Translations under genes and position numbers: made by a program
Shown: piece by piece, positions 44,399 through 58,362 of the stretch
Position numbering within the stretch: position 1 is the first letter of the stretch
Layout of the letters: the number at the start of each line of letters is the position of its first letter
Source: Amedibacterium intestinale
GTDB taxonomy: Bacteria; Bacillota_I; Bacilli_A; Erysipelotrichales; Erysipelotrichaceae
DNA length: 64,000 nt
Direction of reading: 5' to 3'
Assembly: GCF_010537335.1 (NCBI RefSeq)
Contig: NZ_AP019711.1
Span: 1,178,001 to 1,242,000 of the forward strand
The notes under the pieces: model-generated
What the model was told of the DNA's origin: nothing
What the model saw: the letters and a program-made list of their open reading frames with translations, nothing else
Databases searched by the model: none

Positions 44399-47300
44399 CT
44401 ATCTTTTAAGCTTTTCTTTTTTTCTAAGAACTAAAAATGCTATTAGCCCAGATGCAATCGCAAGAATAATAAGTCCACCTGTATGTTCTTCAACTCCTGT
44501 TTTTACTTTTACAGGTATTTTTTGATTCCTGTATGTTACATGAAGAATATTTCCAATACCTTTTGCTTTTTCATCAAGCACAACCTTTTTAACTTCTTTT
44601 GACAATTGATAGCCTTTTGGTGCCTGTATTTCTTTTAGATAATAAACACCAAATGGAAGGTTTTCAAAACAAATCGTACCATCTTCTTTGTTGGCATTTT
44701 TAATAGAAATTAAATCTGTACAACCTTCATCCTTGTAAATCGCAAATATAAAATCACTTCCTGTAATCGGCTTACCTGTTGTAGAATCTACTTTATGTAC
44801 TACAATATCCGTTAACAACAATTCATCTTTCATTTGTACTTTTTGTATTTCTCCAGTATCTTTTACTTCAAACACTATCTCCTCAGCAAGTGCATAACCT
44901 TTTGGAGCAAGTGTTTCTACTAGTTTATACTTGCCAACAGGAAGTGCCTTAAATACGGTTGGCTTTTCTTTTGATATAAATTCTTCTACCACTTCATCAC
45001 TTTCTAAATCCACGATTTGCAAATGTGCACCGGCAAGTTCTTTTTCTCCTGTTATATCTGTTTTCGAGATTTCTACTTTTGTGGCTTCATTTCCAATATC
45101 GAAGCTAAATGACAGTACATCTTCTTTTTGATTTGTATACTTCGTATCAAACAAATAACGTGTTGTTACACCACTAGTATATCCTGCAGGAGCTTTTGTT
45201 TCCTGAACATAAAACAAAGCATTCAAATCTCCTTCATAACGAATATCTTCATCCTTTGAGGCATTTTCTTCTTTCAATGGATCCATCGCATATTCAGGTG
45301 TCAGATCATTTGGCAAATCAAGAGTAAAAACTGCCTTTCCTGTTTCATCACTCTCTACTGTTTCCAATTTTGTATTTGGATCTGCAATCACCTCTCCATC
45401 ATAATTGTACAGTTTTCTGTTCGTATAAAGACTTATTTGTGCACCTAGTAACCCTTCTTTTGTTTCAGAATCCAGTTTATTTACACAAACTTCTATTTTT
45501 TGTCGTTCATTATCAAAATCCTGCAGCTCACTAAATACAACTTCTGTTTCCTGATTCTGATATTTGAGTTCTACTTCTTTTTTTTCTGTAGATTGTACAT
45601 AGCCATCAGGAGCTTTCTTTTCTACGATGTAGTATTTTCCTAGAGGAAGTAAAGATGTAGTTATAACTCCCTGTTTTCCTGTTACTAACGTTTCAATAAG
45701 TTCATCTTTTCGATATAAGATATCTCCATGGTTATCTGGTGATAAAATATCTTCTGCAGCATAAATTTCAAATTCGGCATCTGCGAGTTTCCTTTTTTCA
45801 TATACAAATTTTGCAGTTCCCTTTTCATCAAAGTAAAGATCTTTAAGAACTTCTCCTTCTTTACTAACTTCAATTCTTCCTTTTACCGATTGATCTGACA
45901 TTTTTACCGTTATAAGCGGTGTTGTTCCATCTGGAAGAGTTTCATGTGCTTCCTCTTTCGAAATTTTAAATTTCACTGGTTCTGTATTGATAACATACCC
46001 ATTTGGAGCTTTGATTTCTTCTAACCGATATTCTCCCGGATGAAGCACATCCCCAGTCATTACGGTTCCATCCTCCGCAGTTTCCCATGTATCTACATAA
46101 TGAGGAAATGGGTTCCATTCCCAATAACCTACATATTTGTTTGTTTTTAAGTCTTTAATTTTAAAAGTTGCACCTGGAATAGCCACTGTATTTCCTGTTT
46201 CTATATCAAGTTTTACAATCTTCAATACAGCTTTAAATTTTTCGTCATTGAACACTCGCCAAACCTGCGGCTCTCTGCTATCTTCTGTAATCGTTACGGT
46301 AAAATCAGGAACGCTGTAGTGATCAGATGGTGTTTTTGTCTCTCTTATAACATATGTTCCAAATGACAATTCATCAGAAAGTGCATATCCTTTCTTATCT
46401 GTGACCATGACTGCTGCATCTTTACCAAATGCATTTTTCGCAACTGGTGCTTTTTCCCAGCTTCCATATTTATCAATCTCTTTCTGTGCTTTGATAGTAA
46501 ATTCTGCACCCTCTAACAAGTCTGCCTCTCCAGATCCATTATCAGAAATTTTAATTATTTCAAACGGCTGAGAGATAACTTTTTCTGATGAAGTAACAGA
46601 TTTTATAATCAATGCCACTTCCTGCCCCTCATAGCTAATATCAATCATATAAGTTTTTGGATCCAATGTATAACCATTACTTGGCTTTACTTCCTTTACA
46701 TTGTATTTTCCTAAATACAACTGATCATTTGTAGAAGCATTTCCTTCGCTGTCTGTTGTAAGTGTTGTGATCAAAGTGTCTTTTTCATGAAGAACACTTC
46801 CATCTGCTGGATCAACAATATTTTCCGCTGCTCTTACTTCATAAACTGCACCTTCCAGTGTTGCTTCTCCCTGTGGGTTTTTTCCAATTACACTATCTTC
46901 TTTAGAAAGCTTAATTTGTCCTTTTACTCTGGTATTTGATAAAACTGCTTCATATTTTTTTCCATCTTCTGTAATGTTATAGACTAGTTTTTCATCAGAA
47001 TGCGTATAGCCATCTGGTGCAGTTTTTTCTACTAAGTAGTAGCTTCCATAACGAAGAAGATTGCTTTTCGCAATACCATTATTGTTGGTTGTAATATCTG
47101 TTACATAAGTATTATCAGACTTATATACAGAGAATGTCGTATTAGCCTTTACTACAGTTTTTCCAGTTTCTTTATCACGTTTTAATACCTGAATATACCC
47201 TTCAATTGGTTTATCACTTCCACTAACTTCAATTCTCTGTTCATTTTCTGACACAGTTACGCTATACTCCTGTGGATTTAAAACATATCCTTCAGGCGCA

Positions 47301-48547
47301 ATAATCTCTTTTACTCTATATTCTCCAAATCTTAAATATCCGGATTCCACATAGCCAGTTGCCGTTGTGACCAGTCGTTCTAATTCCTGTCCTTGTTGAT
47401 TATAAATAGCATAAGTTGCACCACCTACCTGCTCATTGGTTTTGCTGTCAACTTTTCTTAGTTTGATCTTACCTTTTACCCAATTGTTTTTTGCAGTATA
47501 AGTAGCTGTTTCATTCGGATTGATGGTTACAGTTCGAATAGTAGTATCAAGTACTAAATGACTAGGTACAGAAGTTTCCTGTATATACCAAGTACCCTGT
47601 TCTAAATCATTGACAGTTACCGTACCATCACTTCCAGTCGTATAGGTTCCAATTGGAGAGGACATATCCGCATTTTTAGACAGCTTGAATGATGTATTAG
47701 AAACATAATTTCCATCTTCATCCTGTTTCGTAATTTTTAAAGACCCTGTTCGATTTACTTTAATTCTAACAATTGAACCATAGGGATCTTTTCCAGTCAA
47801 ATAAGAAACAGCCTGATTTTGTCCTTGACGAACGACAATTGTATCTTTCGTTTGTTCAGTAGACATACCTCTATCAAAAGTAATCGTCATTGTATCCAAT
47901 GTACCATCAGGAGTGACTTTTAAAGTGTTTCCACTGATACTTGCTTTTCCACCTGTCACACTCTTGATTCGCAAACCACTTAAAACTTTATTCGTATCAT
48001 TGATACTGGCAGTTTCCCCCATATCAATTGTAATTTCCTTATTATAAAAACTAGGTTTATCATAGAAATGATTTACTTTATTCATGACATTGTTGAACCA
48101 GGATTGCATAGAGGATTCATTTGGATACGTGGAATTTCCCATTCTCTGTCCACTTCCTAAATATTTCCACACTAGATTCTGTGTCATCATATAGTCAACT
48201 TTTGTTGGTTTTGATTTACTTCTGTATCCATACCATGTAATAAGTGCCATTTCATTCATCTGTTTATCTGTCAAGCCAATATCACTAGGTTTTATAGGTT
48301 CATTTGGACCTATTGCGGATACTTTATCCGGCTCTATACAGAAGGCCTGTTTTCCATTCAAATAAAGAATAGATCCATCCCCATATTTATCTGAACCAAA
48401 GAAATACCAATCTGACTGATACTCTTCTGTTAAATTATAAGTAGCAGCTTTGACAATCGGAATTCCATTTGTAAAGACTGTTGTCAGTGCCATAAAACCT
48501 GCTAGTACAAGTTTTGGAATTTTATTTAAAGTCTTTTTAAACTTCAT
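44399..48547 (-). CDS. thioester-domain surface adhesin with about ten CnaB/SpaA repeats
   Basis: 1382-residue secreted protein. Signal peptide 1-35 (cleavage after IVKA), then a thioester domain with the Cys and Gln that would form the bond: C70 in AFCIEP and Q123 in MMTQNLVW. Such domains bind host proteins covalently. From about residue 255 onward come roughly ten CnaB/SpaA repeats, each with an opening Lys strand (LKITKQD, IKLRKVD, VEISKTD), an acidic Y.VKE.APxGY motif and a closing strand, so intramolecular isopeptide bonds are likely. The C-terminus has a hydrophobic helix and a basic tail (RKKEKLKR), with VKVKTGVEEHTGG before it in place of LPXTG. GAAGGAGGAAAAATGT precedes the ATG. Cell-wall adhesin or pilin-like tip; no sortase gene is in the window. 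Confidence 0.93.
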   Translation of the reverse strand: MKFKKTLNKIPKLVLAGFMALTTVFTNGIPIVKAATYNLTEEYQSDWYFFGSDKYGDGSILYLNGKQAFCIEPDKVSAIGPNEPIKPSDIGLTDKQMNEMALITWYGYRSKSKPTKVDYMMTQNLVWKYLGSGQRMGNSTYPNESSMQSWFNNVMNKVNHFYDKPSFYNKEITIDMGETASINDTNKVLSGLRIKSVTGGKASISGNTLKVTPDGTLDTMTITFDRGMSTEQTKDTIVVRQGQNQAVSYLTGKDPYGSIVRIKVNRTGSLKITKQDEDGNYVSNTSFKLSKNADMSSPIGTYTTGSDGTVTVNDLEQGTWYIQETSVPSHLVLDTTIRTVTINPNETATYTAKNNWVKGKIKLRKVDSKTNEQVGGATYAIYNQQGQELERLVTTATGYVESGYLRFGEYRVKEIIAPEGYVLNPQEYSVTVSENEQRIEVSGSDKPIEGYIQVLKRDKETGKTVVKANTTFSVYKSDNTYVTDITTNNNGIAKSNLLRYGSYYLVEKTAPDGYTHSDEKLVYNITEDGKKYEAVLSNTRVKGQIKLSKEDSVIGKNPQGEATLEGAVYEVRAAENIVDPADGSVLHEKDTLITTLTTDSEGNASTNDQLYLGKYNVKEVKPSNGYTLDPKTYMIDISYEGQEVALIIKSVTSSEKVISQPFEIIKISDNGSGEADLLEGAEFTIKAQKEIDKYGSWEKAPVAKNAFGKDAAVMVTDKKGYALSDELSFGTYVIRETKTPSDHYSVPDFTVTITEDSREPQVWRVFNDEKFKAVLKIVKLDIETGNTVAIPGATFKIKDLKTNKYVGYWEWNPFPHYVDTWETAEDGTVMTGDVLHPGEYRLEEIKAPNGYVINTEPVKFKISKEEAHETLPDGTTPLITVKMSDQSVKGRIEVSKEGEVLKDLYFDEKGTAKFVYEKRKLADAEFEIYAAEDILSPDNHGDILYRKDELIETLVTGKQGVITTSLLPLGKYYIVEKKAPDGYVQSTEKKEVELKYQNQETEVVFSELQDFDNERQKIEVCVNKLDSETKEGLLGAQISLYTNRKLYNYDGEVIADPNTKLETVESDETGKAVFTLDLPNDLTPEYAMDPLKEENASKDEDIRYEGDLNALFYVQETKAPAGYTSGVTTRYLFDTKYTNQKEDVLSFSFDIGNEATKVEISKTDITGEKELAGAHLQIVDLESDEVVEEFISKEKPTVFKALPVGKYKLVETLAPKGYALAEEIVFEVKDTGEIQKVQMKDELLLTDIVVHKVDSTTGKPITGSDFIFAIYKDEGCTDLISIKNANKEDGTICFENLPFGVYYLKEIQAPKGYQLSKEVKKVVLDEKAKGIGNILHVTYRNQKIPVKVKTGVEEHTGGLIILAIASGLIAFLVLRKKEKLKR

Positions 48548-48762: not shown

Positions 48763-49701
48763 TTAATTCCAATAGTCTATGTGAAAAAAATAAGGGCTCC
48801 ACATTCCACATGAACATTGTTTTGATGAATATCCTCTTGCCGACCACTCTCCATTAGGTCCCCAATAATTACTTGCCCAGGTATCACATTCATACTCATT
48901 CTCAAAAAACACTCCACTATATACAACATCTGAATATCCCGTTACTGTAATTGAATGCTGGTGTGGATTTGAATCTAATCGCGTTTCTTCTCCACCACTA
49001 GATGATTCGCTATTTCCTAAGTAAGGCGATTCTTCTGAAGTACCGCTATCCAATTTTTCATTATTTGAAAAATTATTCTCAGAATTTATAGAATCATTAT
49101 TTGTATAAAAATTTCCAGTCTTGTTTGGATTATTTAGCGATTTCTTTTTTGTCTCTTTTTTCTTTACGATTACGTTAAATACTTTTTCTGACTTATTTCC
49201 ATTTACATCAACAGCAATTACTTTCACATCATATGTTCCAGTTTTCTTTGTATCCATTTTGCCTTTTTCAATATAGTATCCATCTTTCTCTATAACTTTG
49301 TCACTATATTGCAAGACTCCATCTACAGGATCTTCTACAAGTTTGATGTTATCTTTTAACACTAAATTATCTCCTAAAGTAACAGTAATTGAATCTTTTT
49401 TTAATTCAATTACCGGTTTTTTTGTATCTTCAACGATTACCTCTATATCTTTTTGTACTTTTCTTGATCCATCTGTAAATGTAACAGCTAATTTCTGCTT
49501 ACCAATTTTTTTCTCATCAAAACCATCTACCCTGCTTACTTTAACATTCTCATCAGAATCTTTTGTATAGAAAAGCTTTGTCTTATCCAATTTCTCTCCA
49601 TACTCTATTTTCAGATTTTCTACAGGTAATATCATTAACTCTTTATCACACCCTGCAAGCAAAAATACAATACTTAACCTCCACCATAAGTTACCTTTCA
49701 T
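48763..49701 (-). CDS. lipoprotein with DUF5011-type Ig-like domain
   Basis: 312 residues. Short signal with lipobox LAGC (C18), so it is lipid-anchored on the outer face of the membrane. An Ig-like domain of the DUF5011 kind occupies about 90-180 (KKPVIELKKDSITVTLGDN, GTYDVKVIAVDVNGNKS), followed by a Lys-rich hinge, an Asn/Ser/Glu-rich linker (about 190-245), and a C-terminal piece rich in Tyr, Trp and Cys (SSKQCSCGMWSPYFF). The start at 49701 (MKGNLWW) follows AAGGAGCATTGTGAAT; the frame open to 49725 is rejected. It has its own terminator. Role unknown, probably surface display or protein-protein contact beside the adhesin. Confidence 0.85.
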   Translation of the reverse strand: MKGNLWWRLSIVFLLAGCDKELMILPVENLKIEYGEKLDKTKLFYTKDSDENVKVSRVDGFDEKKIGKQKLAVTFTDGSRKVQKDIEVIVEDTKKPVIELKKDSITVTLGDNLVLKDNIKLVEDPVDGVLQYSDKVIEKDGYYIEKGKMDTKKTGTYDVKVIAVDVNGNKSEKVFNVIVKKKETKKKSLNNPNKTGNFYTNNDSINSENNFSNNEKLDSGTSEESPYLGNSESSSGGEETRLDSNPHQHSITVTGYSDVVYSGVFFENEYECDTWASNYWGPNGEWSARGYSSKQCSCGMWSPYFFHIDYWN

Positions 49702-49820
49702 ATTCACAATGCTCCTTATTCTCATCTATGTTAAATCGTATGATCCTATTTATTTACATTACAATTTTACCATGGATAAACGAGCCTTTCTCAAGCATTT
49801 TTCTTGCATTTTTCTTGCAC

Positions 49821-49865
49821 AAAAAAAACAATTCATCTTGTAATCATACAAAAGAAAGATGAATT
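49821..49865 (-). terminator. terminator of ABC/YgbA/YbaN operon
   Basis: On the minus strand AATTCATCTT, a 16-base loop, AAGATGAATT, then GTTTTTTTT, just after the small ORF stop at 49873. Confidence 0.7.
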
Positions 49866-49872
49866 GCTTTCC

Positions 49873-50010
49873 TTAATTTTTAACAGTTGGCACACTTAAA
49901 ACATCCACTATATGTTCTCGTTTTTCAATAAACATAAATAACATTACGAATATTAAAATTGCCATTAGAATAATTATAACTCTTTTTATCTTCATAAACT
50001 TATCTCTCAT
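49873..50010 (-). CDS. 45-residue single-helix membrane peptide
   Basis: Short frame overlapping the end of the YbaN-type gene by 11 bp. It encodes a basic start (MRDKFMKIKR), one strong membrane helix (VIIILMAILIFVMLFMF) and a short polar tail (IEKREHIVDVLSVPTVKN). There is no strong ribosome site of its own; translation would be coupled to the upstream gene. Alternative start at the fifth codon later (MKIKR). Coding status is supported by position before the operon terminator and the clean membrane-helix pattern. Function unknown; it could be a small partner of YbaN or the transporter. Confidence 0.55.
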   Translation of the reverse strand: MRDKFMKIKRVIIILMAILIFVMLFMFIEKREHIVDVLSVPTVKN

Positions 50011-50419
50011 TTTGATTCAACATTTCTTTATGAAAAAACTTTTTTTCATACTTTTCTTCTGTTGAAATTGTTTTAATACGAAACAAAAAATAATAATATT
50101 TAAACACAATCAAAAAGCCAATGAATATACGAACTGCAGGAACAGGCACCACTATCATTGCGATAACAAGCATACAGCTTGCAAATAACAGCAAAGAAAC
50201 CTTTGTTTTTCTTGTCATCGCACGATGTTCTACAAAACTTTCTAAATGTTTTTTATACAAGCTTGTATGTGTAAACCATGTATGAAATCGTTTCGAGCTT
50301 TTCGCAAAACAAAAAGTTGCCAGCAGTAAAAATGGGGTTGTTGGAAGAATGGGCAACAAAACACCGATAGCTCCTAGCCCTGCCGAAAGAAATCCAAGTA
50401 ATAAAAAGAATAGTTTCAT
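50000..50419 (-). CDS. YbaN family (DUF454) membrane protein
   Basis: 139 residues with the DUF454 signature: a first helix LFFLLLGFLSAGLGAIGVLLPILPTTPFLLLATFCFAKSS, then the middle loop FHTWFTHTSLYKKHLESFVEHRAMTRKTK, and two more helices. Family function is unknown, but YbaN genes commonly lie beside genes for heme, respiration or nitrosative-stress proteins. The start overlaps the YgbA-type stop by 4 bp (ATGA) with GGAGAAA upstream; the stop overlaps the 45-residue peptide by 11 bp. It belongs to the operon led by the two ABC half-transporters. Confidence 0.85.
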   Translation of the reverse strand: MKLFFLLLGFLSAGLGAIGVLLPILPTTPFLLLATFCFAKSSKRFHTWFTHTSLYKKHLESFVEHRAMTRKTKVSLLLFASCMLVIAMIVVPVPAVRIFIGFLIVFKYYYFLFRIKTISTEEKYEKKFFHKEMLNQNER

Positions 50420-50742
50420 AAATATTTCTCCTTTTTCTCATAATACAAATGACGAAGCGCTTTTATTGGATGATACAACAGCATGCGTGGACCACTGAAA
50501 CGCATAACAGTTTGTATTTGTGCACGATATTTCTTTTGATAACAATGTACCTTGCAGCTGCTGCAAAAAGTCTTTGTTTCCATAAAAGGACATACTTCTA
50601 TACGTTTACATGCATACTCATATAGTTCTGCACATTCCTTACATAGTTCTTTTTGTGCATGTTTCTTTCTGCAATATAAACAAATCATCAAATACAAGAT
50701 AGCTTTTTCTTCTTTACGTTTTTTATCAACATCTTTCCTCAT
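50416..50742 (-). CDS. nitrous oxide-stimulated promoter family protein (YgbA-like)
   Basis: 108 residues with the YgbA_NO family pattern: MICLYCRKKH, KELCKECAELYEYACKRIEVCPF, TFCSSCKVHCYQKKYR and the closing MRFSGPRMLLYHPIKALRHL. At least nine cysteines arranged as CxxC and CxxxC pairs suggest a metal or Fe-S centre. E. coli YgbA is known as an NO-induced (NsrR-regulated) protein, helping recovery from nitrosative stress. It overlaps the preceding ABC gene stop by one base (TAATG). In this operon it links the transporters to NO or redox stress. Confidence 0.88.
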   Translation of the reverse strand: MRKDVDKKRKEEKAILYLMICLYCRKKHAQKELCKECAELYEYACKRIEVCPFMETKTFCSSCKVHCYQKKYRAQIQTVMRFSGPRMLLYHPIKALRHLYYEKKEKYL

Positions 50743-52394
50743 TAGCTGACCCTTCCATTTTCTATTCGAATCAGCTTATCCGCAATTTTTAAAGTGCTTA
50801 AACGATGAGAAACAAGTATGATTGTTTTTTCTTTCTGTGCTTTTAGATTTTTTAGAATTTCCGCTTCATTTAATGCATCCAGATTGCTGGTTGGCTCATC
50901 CAGTAAAATACAGGATGATGCGTGAAGAAAGGCTCTTGCCAAGGCAATACGCTGACGTTCTCCTCCAGATAAGGATTCTCCAAGTTCGGAAACATTGGTA
51001 TCATACCCCTTTGGCAAAGAACTGATAAATTCATGAATATTCGCTTTCTTGCAGGCAGCGATGATTTCTTCCTCGCTGGCATTTAACTTAGCAATGCGAA
51101 TATTGTTTTTAATTGAATCATGGAATAATACTGTATCCTGCGTCACAAAGCTTTGCATATCTCGTAAATTGCTTGTATTCATATCTTGCAGGTTTCGATT
51201 TCCCACTGAAATCATCCCTTGATTTGGTTCATAAAAACGCATCATAAGTTTTAATAAAGTTGATTTTCCACAACCGCTTTGCCCAAGAATACCTGTAATT
51301 TTTCCTTTTTCAAACACATCAGAAAAATTCCTTACAACTTCTTCATCCTGATATGCAAAGCTCACATTCTGTGCATGAATGGAATCAAATTCAGCTTCTT
51401 CTTTCCCTGTGATATCTTTTGTTGTCTCTTCTTCATCCAATAATGCCAATACACGTCTTGCACTTGCAAGTGTAATCAAAAGATTATTTGATAAATTGCT
51501 TAATGCCAGTACTGGTCCAAAACTAGACAGCATTAAAACAGTAGATAATAAAACCTGTGTAAACGAAACAATATGATTTACATACAGCATATATCCAAAT
51601 ACAAACATCAACATAGAAAATCCCATGATTGCGGTATTATTCAATGCTGTAGTTAAACCTTCATAGCTTTTTAAATTCTTTTGAATATCGTTAATGCTTC
51701 TGCTTTTTTCCTGCATACTTTCCATTCGTTTCTTGCCTATGCCATACTGCAGCACTTCCTGCATACCACGCAATGTTTCTAATACCGAATTGCTTAAATC
51801 CCCAAACTCTTCACGCGATGTTTTTCCATCTTCTTTTCCGATTTTACTAATATACATAGGAATGAAAACTCCTACACAAAGATAAGCAAGAAGTGCTATG
51901 ATCACAAATCCAAAATGCAGATAGAAAAAGATAGAAAGAAGAATAACACTGGTAAATATTGCGATCAATATAGGAGAAATCGTATGAGCATAAAATACTT
52001 CCAATGCTTCAATGTCACTTGTAATCAAAAAGATTAAATTTCCAGAATCTCGTCCATCCAGTTTTGCCGGACATAAACGTCGCAGTTTTGAAAATACTTT
52101 ATCACGTAAAATCGCAAGAAGTTTAAAGGCGATATAATGATTGCATGCCTGTTCTCCATAATGCAGAATCCCTCGCATAATTGCCATGACCAGGATCATA
52201 ACAAAAAACAATGAAACGGGAAATGCAAACCCCTGTGCTACATGTGCAATCGTAATAGAGGCAAAAAAGGGAATAAAGATGGCACACAGAAACCCAAGCA
52301 CTCCTAAAAGAACTGCTAAAGCCATATAGCCTGCCAGTGGTTTTACCAATTTGCTCATTCGAAACATCAATAAAACATTATGCTCTTTCTTCAT
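50742..52394 (-). CDS. CydDC-like ABC transporter, fused membrane and ATPase (second half)
   Basis: 550 residues: six-helix ABC exporter domain (about 20-315) then an ATPase domain with Walker A (GILGQSGCGKST), the LSGGERQRIALARAFLH signature and Walker B (CILLDEPTSNLD). It resembles CydC, one half of the cysteine/glutathione exporter that supports cytochrome bd assembly, but no cyd oxidase genes are near. Forms a heterodimer with the preceding half, whose gene it overlaps by 17 bp. Start at 52394 (MKKEHNV) follows GGAGGTAGTGAAG; the frame to 52460 is not used. Exported substrate may be thiol or heme. Confidence 0.9.
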   Translation of the reverse strand: MKKEHNVLLMFRMSKLVKPLAGYMALAVLLGVLGFLCAIFIPFFASITIAHVAQGFAFPVSLFFVMILVMAIMRGILHYGEQACNHYIAFKLLAILRDKVFSKLRRLCPAKLDGRDSGNLIFLITSDIEALEVFYAHTISPILIAIFTSVILLSIFFYLHFGFVIIALLAYLCVGVFIPMYISKIGKEDGKTSREEFGDLSNSVLETLRGMQEVLQYGIGKKRMESMQEKSRSINDIQKNLKSYEGLTTALNNTAIMGFSMLMFVFGYMLYVNHIVSFTQVLLSTVLMLSSFGPVLALSNLSNNLLITLASARRVLALLDEEETTKDITGKEEAEFDSIHAQNVSFAYQDEEVVRNFSDVFEKGKITGILGQSGCGKSTLLKLMMRFYEPNQGMISVGNRNLQDMNTSNLRDMQSFVTQDTVLFHDSIKNNIRIAKLNASEEEIIAACKKANIHEFISSLPKGYDTNVSELGESLSGGERQRIALARAFLHASSCILLDEPTSNLDALNEAEILKNLKAQKEKTIILVSHRLSTLKIADKLIRIENGRVS

Positions 52395-54126
52395 CTTCAC
52401 TACCTCCATAAAACTGTTCCAATTCCTGCTGTTTTGTATACATTGATGCATACATACCATGCTGCATCATTAATTCTTCATGTGTGCCATTTTCTATACA
52501 GCTGCCATCTTTTAAAACATAAATACGATCGGCTGTTGCAATGGTACTTAAACGATGTGTAATCATAAGAATCGTTTTCGTTTTTGTCATTTCCTGAATG
52601 ACCTGTAAAATAGCTTCTTCACTTTCCAGATCAATATTACTTGTAGCCTCATCAAATATATACATATCCTTGTCTGCCAAAAGGGCTCTTGCGATTGCTA
52701 AACGCTGCTTTTGTCCTCCAGATAAATTATTTCCATTTTCCACAAGCATCGTATCCAATCCATCCTGCTCCATTAAGAAATCATACAGTTTTACTTTCTT
52801 TAATGCTTCCAAAAGCTGTTCCTCACATAAACCATCTTTTGCAGCCATCAAATTTTCACGTACACTTCCTTTAAACAAAGTTGACTTATGTGTTACATAC
52901 ATTACATGTTCATAAAAAGATGCATCATCAATTTCACTTCGTTCTATATCGCATACCATAAGATTTCCCTTATATCCGCTGGCAAGCCCTGTAAGCAGTT
53001 TCGCAATCGTACTTTTTCCAGAACCGCTTTCTCCAACAATTGCGACAAACTCTTTTTCTTTTACACCAAGACTTACCTCCTTGATGACCTGACGATCGCT
53101 ATCATAACCAAAGCTTACATTTTCCAAACATACAGAAATATGTTTATCCTGTAACTGCTTTGTTTTTGTATGTTTTACTTCCACATCCAAAAGCTTAAAT
53201 ATTTTCGCACTTGCGGCAATCCCATTCATTGCGATATGAAAGAAGGAACCAAGCATGCGAAGTGGAATAAAAAACTCACTGGATAACAGTACAATACATA
53301 ACAAGGAGAACAAGCTGACTCTTCCTGCCATATACCCCTGTATTGCCACAATACTTCCTATGGCCGCCCCGCCATACGCAACAATATCCATAACGCTGAC
53401 AGAGTTTAGCTGCATTGTTAAAACTTTCATCGTAATACGGCGAAAATGCTCGGCTTCTTTGTTCATTTCTTCATGTTTATATCCATCTGCCTGATATATT
53501 TTTAATGTTGTAAGTCCTTGTAAATTTTCTAGAAAACTATCCGATAAAGCTGCATAACTGCCCCAGTATTTCCCAAGCAGTTTTTTCGCAATTTTTTGTA
53601 TTGCGATAATGGATAAGGGAATTAATGGTACACATAGAAGAAGAACAAGAGAACTGTAAACATCCATCCAAACCAAAAGTACAAACAATGTAACTGGTGC
53701 CAGCATGCTGTAAAAAAACTGTGGCAAATAGCGTGAAAAATATGTTTCTAACTGATCGACACCTTCAACACTTAACTGCACAAGTTCACTTGTAGCTGCA
53801 TAATTTGTATAATCATTTTTCAATTCTAATAATTTTTCATATATTCGTGTTCGTAAATGCAGTTTCACATCACAAGATGCTTCATGAGAATACATGCTTG
53901 CTTTTCTTGTTACAAAAATGCGTAATATTATCAAAACACTAACAATCACGACAAATACAACAATATTTGTTACAGAAATTGTTTTCTTTAAACTTTCTAC
54001 TAAAACAGCAGATAAAGAAAAGACCAATCCCACATTGCAAAGCATGCCTATCCATTGCATAAAAACCTGTTTAAATACAAACTGTTTTGCCTGTGGCATT
54101 TCTTTTATCAAACGCTTATCAATCAT
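52378..54126 (-). CDS. CydDC-like ABC transporter, fused membrane and ATPase (first half)
   Basis: 582 residues: ABC exporter membrane domain (about 20-310) and ATPase domain with Walker A (GESGSGKST), signature LSGGQKQRLAIARALL and Walker B (MYIFDEATSNID). Best matched in outline by CydD and related peptide/thiol exporters. The short acidic C-terminal tail carries YGGSEDEERA. It starts the operon; ATG at 54126 (MIDKRLIKEM) follows GGAGGTTGTT; an upstream TTG is rejected. Together with the next gene it forms a heterodimeric exporter, and with the YgbA- and YbaN-type genes a likely redox/nitrosative-stress operon. Confidence 0.9.
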   Translation of the reverse strand: MIDKRLIKEMPQAKQFVFKQVFMQWIGMLCNVGLVFSLSAVLVESLKKTISVTNIVVFVVIVSVLIILRIFVTRKASMYSHEASCDVKLHLRTRIYEKLLELKNDYTNYAATSELVQLSVEGVDQLETYFSRYLPQFFYSMLAPVTLFVLLVWMDVYSSLVLLLCVPLIPLSIIAIQKIAKKLLGKYWGSYAALSDSFLENLQGLTTLKIYQADGYKHEEMNKEAEHFRRITMKVLTMQLNSVSVMDIVAYGGAAIGSIVAIQGYMAGRVSLFSLLCIVLLSSEFFIPLRMLGSFFHIAMNGIAASAKIFKLLDVEVKHTKTKQLQDKHISVCLENVSFGYDSDRQVIKEVSLGVKEKEFVAIVGESGSGKSTIAKLLTGLASGYKGNLMVCDIERSEIDDASFYEHVMYVTHKSTLFKGSVRENLMAAKDGLCEEQLLEALKKVKLYDFLMEQDGLDTMLVENGNNLSGGQKQRLAIARALLADKDMYIFDEATSNIDLESEEAILQVIQEMTKTKTILMITHRLSTIATADRIYVLKDGSCIENGTHEELMMQHGMYASMYTKQQELEQFYGGSEDEERA

Positions 54127-54168
54127 AACAACCTCCAAAAAAGTTATATCAATCTAATTTATGTGATA

Positions 54169-54197
54169 AGTTTACCAAACCTAACTTTGTGTGTCAA
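54169..54197 (-). promoter_or_regulatory. sigma-A promoter of ABC/YgbA/YbaN operon
   Basis: On the minus strand TTGACA (54197-54192), a 17-bp spacer, TAAACT (54174-54169), 43 bp before the start codon. AAGTT/AACTT arms flank the spacer and -10 and could form a weak operator; no NsrR or FNR site is recognised. Confidence 0.65.
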
Positions 54198-56728: not shown

Positions 56729-57649
56729 TTATTTTAAGAATCCTTCTACAATCACTTTTTCAGCTTCTTCATCACTTAAACCGAACGTTTGAAGTTTAAT
56801 TAACTGATCATTATTAATTTTTCCAATAGCTGCCTCATGTACAATCTGTGCATCAACATGATTTGCCGCAATTTCAGGAATCGAACTAATTTTCGCTTCA
56901 TCCATAATAATAGAATCACACTGTATATGCGCTCTGGATTTATTATTTCCTACTGCAATTGGATGAAATACCTGAACAGATGTATCTTTTCCAACAGAAC
57001 GTGATATAATCTGAACGACACTGTCTTCTCCATTCAAATTTACAGTAACATCACTATATGCTTTCTGTTTACCATGGGTCATCAGTTTTTCATTAATTAC
57101 CAGTTTTGCTTTTGGCCCAAGATTCGCTTCTGTTTTACGCATGGTAGAGTCAACCCCTTTAATTTGACTCATATCCATTTTTGCATAAGAGCCTTCTTCC
57201 ATGTGAATAACAGTAGTAGGATTTAAGATTCTTTCTCCACTGCCATTTCCTTCTCCTACATGTTTTTCAGAATAAACGATTTTTGCATTTTTCCCAATAT
57301 GGAAAGTATGGATTCCATCATGTTGAGATGTATCACATCCATCGTTATGAATTCCACATCCAGCAATAATTTCCACATCACAGTTTTCCCCAATATAAAA
57401 ATCATTGTATACAACATCTTTTATTCCACTTTCTGTTAAAATAACCGGAATATGGATACTTTCTCCTACTGTATTAGCATCAATCCTAATATCAATTCCA
57501 GGTTTATCTGTTTTCGCAGAAATTTTTACATGTTCTGTAGAATGACGTTCAACACCTTCTCCGTTTTTTCTAAGATTAAATGCACTTCCAGGCATAAACC
57601 CACGAATATCCGCAATCGTTTCTAAAAGATCTTTTTCCATGTTTTCCAT
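56729..57649 (-). CDS. smsB: SufB/SufD-like scaffold subunit of minimal Sms iron-sulfur system
   Basis: 306-residue protein of the SufBD fold, a right-handed beta-helix made of short strands (VEIIAGCGIHNDGCDTSQHDGIHTFHIGKNAKIVYSEKHVGEG) and an all-helix C-terminus ending IHEAAIGKINNDQLIKLQTFGLSDEEAEKVIVEGF, typical of SufB/SufD (AAxGxLxxxxLFYLxSRGxxxxEA in larger members). At 306 residues it is shorter than SufB (about 470) and SufD (about 430), matching the SmsB type found with SmsC alone in anaerobes. A two-gene SmsCB pair is the proposed minimal ancestor of Suf. Start at 57649 follows AGGTGTTGAT. It probably assembles Fe-S clusters on an SmsB2C2 complex. Confidence 0.88.
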   Translation of the reverse strand: MENMEKDLLETIADIRGFMPGSAFNLRKNGEGVERHSTEHVKISAKTDKPGIDIRIDANTVGESIHIPVILTESGIKDVVYNDFYIGENCDVEIIAGCGIHNDGCDTSQHDGIHTFHIGKNAKIVYSEKHVGEGNGSGERILNPTTVIHMEEGSYAKMDMSQIKGVDSTMRKTEANLGPKAKLVINEKLMTHGKQKAYSDVTVNLNGEDSVVQIISRSVGKDTSVQVFHPIAVGNNKSRAHIQCDSIIMDEAKISSIPEIAANHVDAQIVHEAAIGKINNDQLIKLQTFGLSDEEAEKVIVEGFLK

Positions 57650-57657
57650 ATCAACAC

Positions 57658-58362
57658 CTACTTTTTAAAGCTGCATGGCTCAAATTCATTCATCAAAGAC
57701 GGAAGTACATCTTCTTTTCTTCCTTTTGTTTTTACCATACCATTTTCAATAATTACAATTTCATCTGCCAGCTGCATGATTCTTTCCTGATGGGAAATCA
57801 GGATAATAGATTGTCGAGAAGTTTCCTGCAATTGCTGGAAAGTTTCTACCAATTTCGCAAAGCTCCATAAATCAATTCCTGCTTCTGGTTCATCGAATAT
57901 TGACAGCTTTAAATCTCTGGCAAGAATCGATGCAATTTCAATACGTTTTACCTCTCCTCCAGATAATGAACCATCCACATCTCTGTCCAAATAATCTTTT
58001 GAACACAAACCAACATCGCTTAAATAGCTGCAGCAGCGATCTTCATTCAATTCCTTACCATGTGCTAAACTCAACAATTTTCTAACACTCATTCCTTTAA
58101 AGCGAGGGGGCTGTTGAAAAGCATAGCCTATTTTTCTTTCCGCACGCTGTGCAATACTCATATTTGTAATATCTTCCCCATCAAAAAGAATACTTCCTCC
58201 TGTTGGTTTTTCTATTCCCATAATAATTTTTGCCAACGTGGATTTTCCACCGCCATTAGGTCCTGTAATCACTGTGAACTGATTATCATCAATTGTTAAA
58301 TTGATATTTCGCAATATATGTTTTCCTTCTACTTCAAAGGATACGTTTCTTAATTCCAGCAT
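57658..58362 (-). CDS. smsC: SufC-like ATPase of minimal Sms iron-sulfur system
   Basis: 234-residue ABC-type ATPase without membrane domain. Walker A GPNGGGKST at about 34-42, Q-loop YAFQQPPRFKGMSV, signature LSGGEVKRIEIA, Walker B SIFDEPEAGIDLWS and switch His in LISHQERI. This is the SufC arrangement, with the characteristic Q-loop and the adenine side LFDGEDITNMS. It drives conformational change in the SufB-like scaffold during Fe-S assembly. It lies 8 bp upstream of smsB; no sufS, sufU or sufE gene is present in the window. AAAAGGAGCGAAATAT precedes the ATG. Confidence 0.92.
   Translation of the reverse strand: MLELRNVSFEVEGKHILRNINLTIDDNQFTVITGPNGGGKSTLAKIIMGIEKPTGGSILFDGEDITNMSIAQRAERKIGYAFQQPPRFKGMSVRKLLSLAHGKELNEDRCCSYLSDVGLCSKDYLDRDVDGSLSGGEVKRIEIASILARDLKLSIFDEPEAGIDLWSFAKLVETFQQLQETSRQSIILISHQERIMQLADEIVIIENGMVKTKGRKEDVLPSLMNEFEPCSFKK

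Follow-up and report, generated by a model that had tools for sequence, protein, structure and literature searches.

We analysed an operon of Amedibacterium intestinale that lies at positions 49,873 to 54,126, on the minus strand, of a 64,000-nucleotide stretch of DNA (the window; positions 1,178,001 to 1,242,000 of contig NZ_AP019711.1), in a source genome that is a single 2.49-Mb contig. The operon encodes two ATP-binding cassette (ABC) half-transporters related to CydD and CydC, a YgbA family protein, a small membrane protein of the YbaN family and a short peptide. In E. coli, ygbA and ybaN have long counted as genes without a known function. On the sequence evidence described here we suggest, with a probability of about one half, that the operon is an iron-starvation module for the transport of heme or a similar iron complex. 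The suggestion combines the iron control of the operon, the retention of the residues that hold heme iron and the absence of cytochrome bd, which jointly indicate a pump for such a cargo, produced at iron shortage. This makes the operon a candidate for heme-type iron handling in gut anaerobes without cytochrome bd, and it detaches from the cytochrome bd partner a clade of CydDC-like proteins to which the nearest NCBI model gives the name of a thiol exporter.

The first-pass annotation had grouped the CydDC relatives with YgbA and YbaN, and our survey of gene neighbourhoods finds strong co-occurrence of these genes elsewhere, so that the annotation withstands the refutation test it had set. Of 272 genomes of the window's family, the Erysipelotrichaceae, 64 encode YgbA, spread over 26 of 59 genera, and the surroundings of all these genes were examined. 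When genes separated by gaps of up to 250 bp are counted as a cluster, an ABC gene accompanies YgbA in 53 of the 64 loci, YbaN in 50 and both in 47; YgbA stands alone in 8, one of them near a contig end. Outside the family we used the best 80 of at least 588 confirmed YgbA matches in GTDB, with one genome per species, so that the set consists of the nearest relatives and was not drawn at random. These loci contain ABC genes in 64 cases, YbaN in 58 and both in 56, with YgbA alone in 14; L096, L121, L130 and L144 repeat family loci and were kept in the count. The cluster rule scores some loci as alone or partial although CydDC lies only slightly farther off (L102, L126 and L136). All module counts come from six-frame searches, as a neighbour survey with a picker of open reading frames (ORFs) missed YgbA in 48 of 144 loci (antisense ORFs). 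Loci with the module are found in Lachnospiraceae, Oscillospiraceae, Atopobiaceae and Treponema, Clostridia being included; a locus labelled Bacteroides (L171) clusters with Clostridia in the tree, and a binning error may explain its label.

The order of the genes varies more than their set. We observed YbaN-YgbA-CydD-CydC, YgbA-YbaN-CydD-CydC, YgbA-CydD-CydC-YbaN and YbaN-CydD-CydC-YgbA, and the full set is kept in the reordered loci L056, L085, L087, L088, L138, L169 and L175. YgbA and YbaN are naturally fused in a single reading frame in five loci (L048, L051, L052, L053 and L168), of which L048 and L051-L053 likewise retain all the genes, and in L127, L146 and L168, from Olsenella and an uncultured Clostridiales, CydD and CydC make up one polypeptide of 1162-1173 residues. 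The retention of the set despite rearrangement argues for a functional unit. Across the 272 genomes YgbA (64 genomes) and YbaN (91 genomes) coincide in 51 (p 1.6e-18, uncorrected for kinship), and in 8 of 20 loci, drawn mostly from YbaN-positive, YgbA-negative genomes, YbaN lies directly by a module-type CydDC without YgbA. Judged by its gene content, cydD-cydC-ygbA-ybaN is a widespread conserved unit common to many oxygen-avoiding gut bacteria. Among published titles and abstracts we found none describing such a module, most subscription journals lying outside this coverage. Genes next to the module were considered as further parts and are not conserved, and the neighbours of solo YgbA and solo YbaN genes, considered as a clue to function, belong to mixed families. 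One solo YbaN gene (L234) comes after a DUF438-hemerythrin-PAS protein, and in L052, from a 58% complete genome, the reading frames of CydD and CydC are broken into several pieces, through either decay or sequencing error. Searches of plasmids gave YgbA in Vibrio, Bacteroides, Chloroflexota and enterobacteria, and YbaN in one Priestia plasmid; no CydDC was found in the three plasmid YgbA regions that we opened.

The regulation of the module can be approached through its promoters. A scan for inverted repeats upstream of module cydD genes found GTTAG-N6-CTAAC in 46 of 108 regions, where 0.05 would be expected. The extended palindrome AGTTAG-N6-CTAACT occurs within two mismatches in 69 of 111 cydD upstream regions, against about 2 in shuffled sequences and 2 of 103 control regions, which lie inside cydD and precede cydC, though the upstream regions are related and the independent events are therefore fewer. 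The operator is also seen at 7 of 28 YgbA genes that lack an immediately preceding CydDC, where 0.35 is expected. Within the window there are only two such sites, both in the module promoter and both on the minus strand. Copy 1, AGTTAGGTTTGGTAAACT, at 54,169 to 54,186 covers the -10 element and the spacer of a promoter-like sequence, TTGACA-17-TAAACT, at 54,169 to 54,197 (minus strand), and copy 2, AATTAGATTGATATAACT, at 54,142 to 54,159 lies directly downstream of the -10. At the genome density of 43 sites per 2.49 Mb, the Poisson chance of two sites in 135 bp is about 3e-6. The promoter-like sequence itself comes from a consensus scan, as one of 23 matches where 21.8 are expected, and is not significant alone. 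Motifs of the NsrR, HcpR/CRP-like, FNR, Rex and Fur/PerR types, in consensus form, are not enriched upstream of module cydD.

The core palindrome is known from another system. EqbA of Streptococcus equi is a DtxR/IdeR-like repressor without an SH3 domain, which together with Fe2+ or Zn2+ binds a palindrome centred on GTTAG-N6-CTAAC in gel shifts (PMC3672683). Both systems share this core, with two mismatches per copy in the window, as well as iron-uptake targets and an encoded DtxR-family protein. They differ in that the operon under EqbA is a siderophore operon carried by a mobile element, and repressor binding here is a prediction. The A. intestinale genome has one DtxR-family match, of 121 residues (C1:1704584-1704949), and one FUR-family match, and the former is the candidate for binding the operator. 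Six exact core sites lie at five promoters of this genome, in front of an NrdI-like flavodoxin (two sites), FeoA-FeoB, a substrate-binding protein with FecCD permeases, a second FecCD set and a radical SAM protein. The last of these (L294, near position 364303 of the genome) has a PF08497 N-terminal domain, and its core site is just before the likely start. Of 30 first exact sites, counted once per genome, 12 precede module, NrdI, NEAT or metal genes: the module in 2 cases, NrdI in 2, FeoA/FeoB in 3, ZIP in 2, NEAT in 1 and a heavy-metal ATPase or CsoR in 2. In the sister species a NEAT-domain gene follows an exact site. In L257, L262 and L266 exact sites are followed by an ATPase and permease ABC pair, not of the module type, which could belong to the iron regulon as well. 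Taken together, the module is very probably under iron regulation, and an operator matching that of iron-uptake genes suggests that heme-like iron is handled rather than nitric oxide.

The transporter resembles CydDC without belonging to its described form. The CydD-like half-transporter (582 amino acids; 52,378 to 54,126, minus strand) is best matched by TIGR02857 at 386.6 bits, below the equivalog cut-off of 435, and the CydC-like half-transporter (550 amino acids; 50,742 to 52,394, minus strand) by TIGR02868 at 326.9 bits, below the cut-off of 329.05. In five further pairs the cut-off is passed by none of the CydD and two of the CydC proteins. Module CydD and module CydC form clades, each beside its reference counterpart with a support of 100, and 8 other ABC exporters fall outside the module and reference pairs (support 100/98 on the CydC side and 100/99 on the CydD side). 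The references are CydDC of bd-linked operons or of E. coli (E. coli, Methylocella, Rubrobacter, Thioclava, Neorhizobium, Niallia and Priestia), and an unannotated CydDC of Aeromonas was added in the trees; the cydA loci L206-L208 have no CydDC nearby and were left out. Rows of the first tree had been pre-filtered for the histidine motifs, and a second tree without this filter confirmed the monophyly. L183, labelled as outgroup by score, is a module CydD that lies inside the CydD side.

In the structure of E. coli CydDC the axial heme ligands are H85 of CydC and H312 of CydD (PMC10374445). With each ORF assigned to CydD or CydC by score, H85 is kept in all 114 scorable rows (8 gaps) and H312 in 110 of 115, the rest being one gap and four flanking ABC paralogues or truncated sequences. 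The window's proteins keep both, the CydD ligand lying in transmembrane helix 6. Cytochrome bd (PF01654 over the cut-off) was detected in none of the 272 family genomes, including that of A. intestinale, with 10 of 14 controls positive. The earlier observation that the window holds no cyd oxidase thus extends to the whole genome and the family, and the usual client of CydDC is absent. The module transporter shares with E. coli CydDC the heterodimeric make-up, the grouping of each half with its bd-linked counterpart and both axial histidines. It differs in its separate sister clades, in two arginine replacements described below, in the lack of cytochrome bd in the family, and in the coupling to YgbA, YbaN and an iron-type operator.

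The window's YgbA (108 amino acids; 50,416 to 50,742, minus strand) scores 132.4 bits against Pfam YgbA_NO (PF11756; cut-off 25) and carries the motif CPF-x6-FC-xx-C-xx-HCY. Its cysteines C51, C60, C63 and C67 are invariant in 27 diverse rows, and C24, H28, C34, C37 and H66 are additionally invariant in 36 closer rows. It belongs to the same Pfam family as YgbA of E. coli and Salmonella; the enterobacterial gene is an NsrR target, whereas here it stands in a CydDC-YbaN operon under an iron-type operator. The function of ygbA in E. coli is given as unknown (PMC2884951). YbaN (139 amino acids; 50,000 to 50,419, minus strand) is a small helical membrane protein of DUF454 (PF04304; 129.3 bits, cut-off 35.1). 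It shares this family with described YbaN proteins, and differs in falling below the cut-off of NCBIfam PRK10527 (92.2 against 163) and in its link to CydDC. An AlphaFold2 model of YgbA is all-helical (predicted local distance difference test, pLDDT, 88.3) and has no convincing match in the PDB (best E 5.1; VIA best Z 4.4). The model of YbaN is weak (pLDDT 77.1, predicted template modelling score 0.49), with no PDB match (best E 7.4); these missing fold matches are not evidence of a new fold. Among solved structures neither protein has a sequence relative, a lone YgbA row at E 0.11 being judged a chance match. One DUF454 gene rises in iron restriction (PMC7970244), and DUF454 and haem oxygenase co-occur with type 11 secretion loci in 118 and 137 of 1,111 cases (PMC12282271).

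These observations lead to the following scheme. When iron is plentiful, a DtxR-type repressor loaded with Fe2+ would silence the operon. At low iron, the heterodimeric pump would move heme or another histidine-ligated iron tetrapyrrole across the membrane, and we consider a tetrapyrrole-type substrate about as likely as not. The direction of transport is more doubtful; inward is our tentative preference among directions, as the iron of the cargo would then become usable. YbaN would be the membrane partner of this pump subclass, and YgbA, which is small and helical and has four invariant cysteines, would receive or process heme or its iron in the cytosol. In its most specific form the proposal is that strict anaerobes have turned a CydDC-type pump of the exporter fold around: repressed by iron, it would import heme or a modified iron tetrapyrrole, YbaN would be its membrane subunit, and YgbA would take iron or heme from it in the cytosol. 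This full version is speculative and rather unlikely to hold in every part, but if true it would describe an anaerobic system for heme-iron acquisition built from two orphan families. Linking YgbA and YbaN with a single transporter subclass and an iron operator also offers a concrete and cheap test for each.

Several observations weigh against the proposed heme-iron function. One concerns the cargo site. In E. coli CydC, R77, R81 and R136 contact the heme propionates (PMC10374445). Module rows have Gln in place of R81 (113 of 113) and His in place of R136 (119 of 119), as does the window's CydC-like protein, whereas the seven bd-linked references have R81 and either R or K at position 136; R77 is still Arg in 99 of 113 module rows and is His in the window. 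The metal-holding site is thus kept and the side-chain (propionate) site is altered in one fixed way, and with these arginines replaced heme itself may not be the cargo. E. coli CydDC is moreover described as an exporter of heme and thiols (PMC13337084, PMC4785604). The operator evidence is also uneven. The window's copies are imperfect, and no site within two mismatches is found in 42 of 111 cydD upstream regions, at 21 of the 28 YgbA genes with no CydDC immediately before them, at 3 of 6 YbaN-first loci without YgbA and at 10 of 12 solo YbaN genes. The other 18 of the 30 first exact sites lie elsewhere, including at several ABC transporters and at places without a clear gene. At up to two mismatches the genome has 43 sites, and a reversed control pattern has 139; with sites so numerous, it is their position that counts. 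Several of the 43 are one repeated sequence, which we take to be 16S rRNA.

Other functions have to be weighed against import of heme iron. Gut anaerobes meet host heme, and the pump might instead detoxify heme or porphyrin by exporting tetrapyrrole that is damaged or in surplus; YgbA and YbaN would then act as sensors or chaperones, and the operator would provide a link to general iron homeostasis. The kept heme ligands fit this explanation, as does the description of E. coli CydDC as a heme transporter or exporter (PMC10374445, PMC13337084). The operator, however, is common to the uptake genes FeoAB and FecCD, and a repressor of uptake genes would turn the exporter on at iron shortage, which is odd for detoxification; we regard this alternative as unlikely. 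Somewhat less probable still is that the pump exports an iron-scavenging small molecule or imports a ferric chelate, with no tetrapyrrole involved. Exporter-fold heterodimers that import iron-siderophores exist in YbtPQ and IrtAB (PMC10967856; PMC10246721), which are likewise tied to iron supply. Iron control would suit such a role, and a different ligand could fit where the propionate site is altered. Against it stand the conservation of both axial histidines, the absence of siderophore synthesis genes among the recurring neighbours, and the grouping of the module transporter with CydDC in a tree that did not include YbtPQ or IrtAB.

The first-pass annotation had proposed a thiol and nitric oxide (NO) stress module. 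In such a module CydDC would export cysteine or another thiol and YgbA would shield iron-sulfur or thiol targets from NO. Enterobacterial ygbA is indeed under NsrR and induced by NO (PMC5320621, PMC2884951), and E. coli CydDC exports cysteine and glutathione, its loss leading to NO sensitivity (PMC4785604). YgbA is also found in 10 of the 18 family genomes that have the hybrid-cluster protein Hcp (p 0.0024, uncorrected for kinship), a mild association that leans towards a link to NO and against our preferred function. On the other side, no NO-type or redox motif is enriched upstream of the module, a search of the A. intestinale genome found no Hcp, and the operator that is enriched belongs to iron genes. 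The NO scavenging examined in E. coli CFT073 did not require ygbA (PMC5320621). The NO and thiol proposal is not supported by these results, and we consider it the least probable of the functions discussed.

The first-pass annotation was right in describing a single co-oriented operon. The five minus-strand frames follow head to tail with overlaps of 17, 1, 4 and 11 bp in order, and GGAGG precedes the ATG of the CydC-like gene. The operon is real and is closed by an intrinsic terminator, a hairpin followed by a U-run at 49,820 to 49,875 (minus strand; z -3.67) after the last frame, although a GC-based scan listed no terminator there. That last frame, a putative gene for a membrane peptide at 49,873 to 50,010 (minus strand), encodes 45 or 40 residues; a start at the second ATG (49,995) has the better ribosome site and removes the 11-bp overlap with YbaN. 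The 45-residue peptide has no Pfam or NCBIfam family, and its best match in the 40 relatives searched, the own genome aside, is at E 0.0068. It is thus lineage-specific and unconserved among these relatives, which does not support the earlier suggestion that it is a part of the module, and it is probably a local accessory or an accidental ORF.

The surroundings of the operon contain other genes. SUF genes of iron-sulfur assembly, for a SufBD-core protein and a SufC-type ATPase, lie at 56,729 to 58,362 (minus strand), 2.6 kb upstream of the module, with an iron-type alcohol dehydrogenase in between. Beyond the terminator, a probably secreted protein of 320 residues (48,763 to 49,725) adjoins a surface protein of 1382 residues (44,399 to 48,547, minus strand), which has a thioester domain and ten SpaA prealbumin-like repeats.

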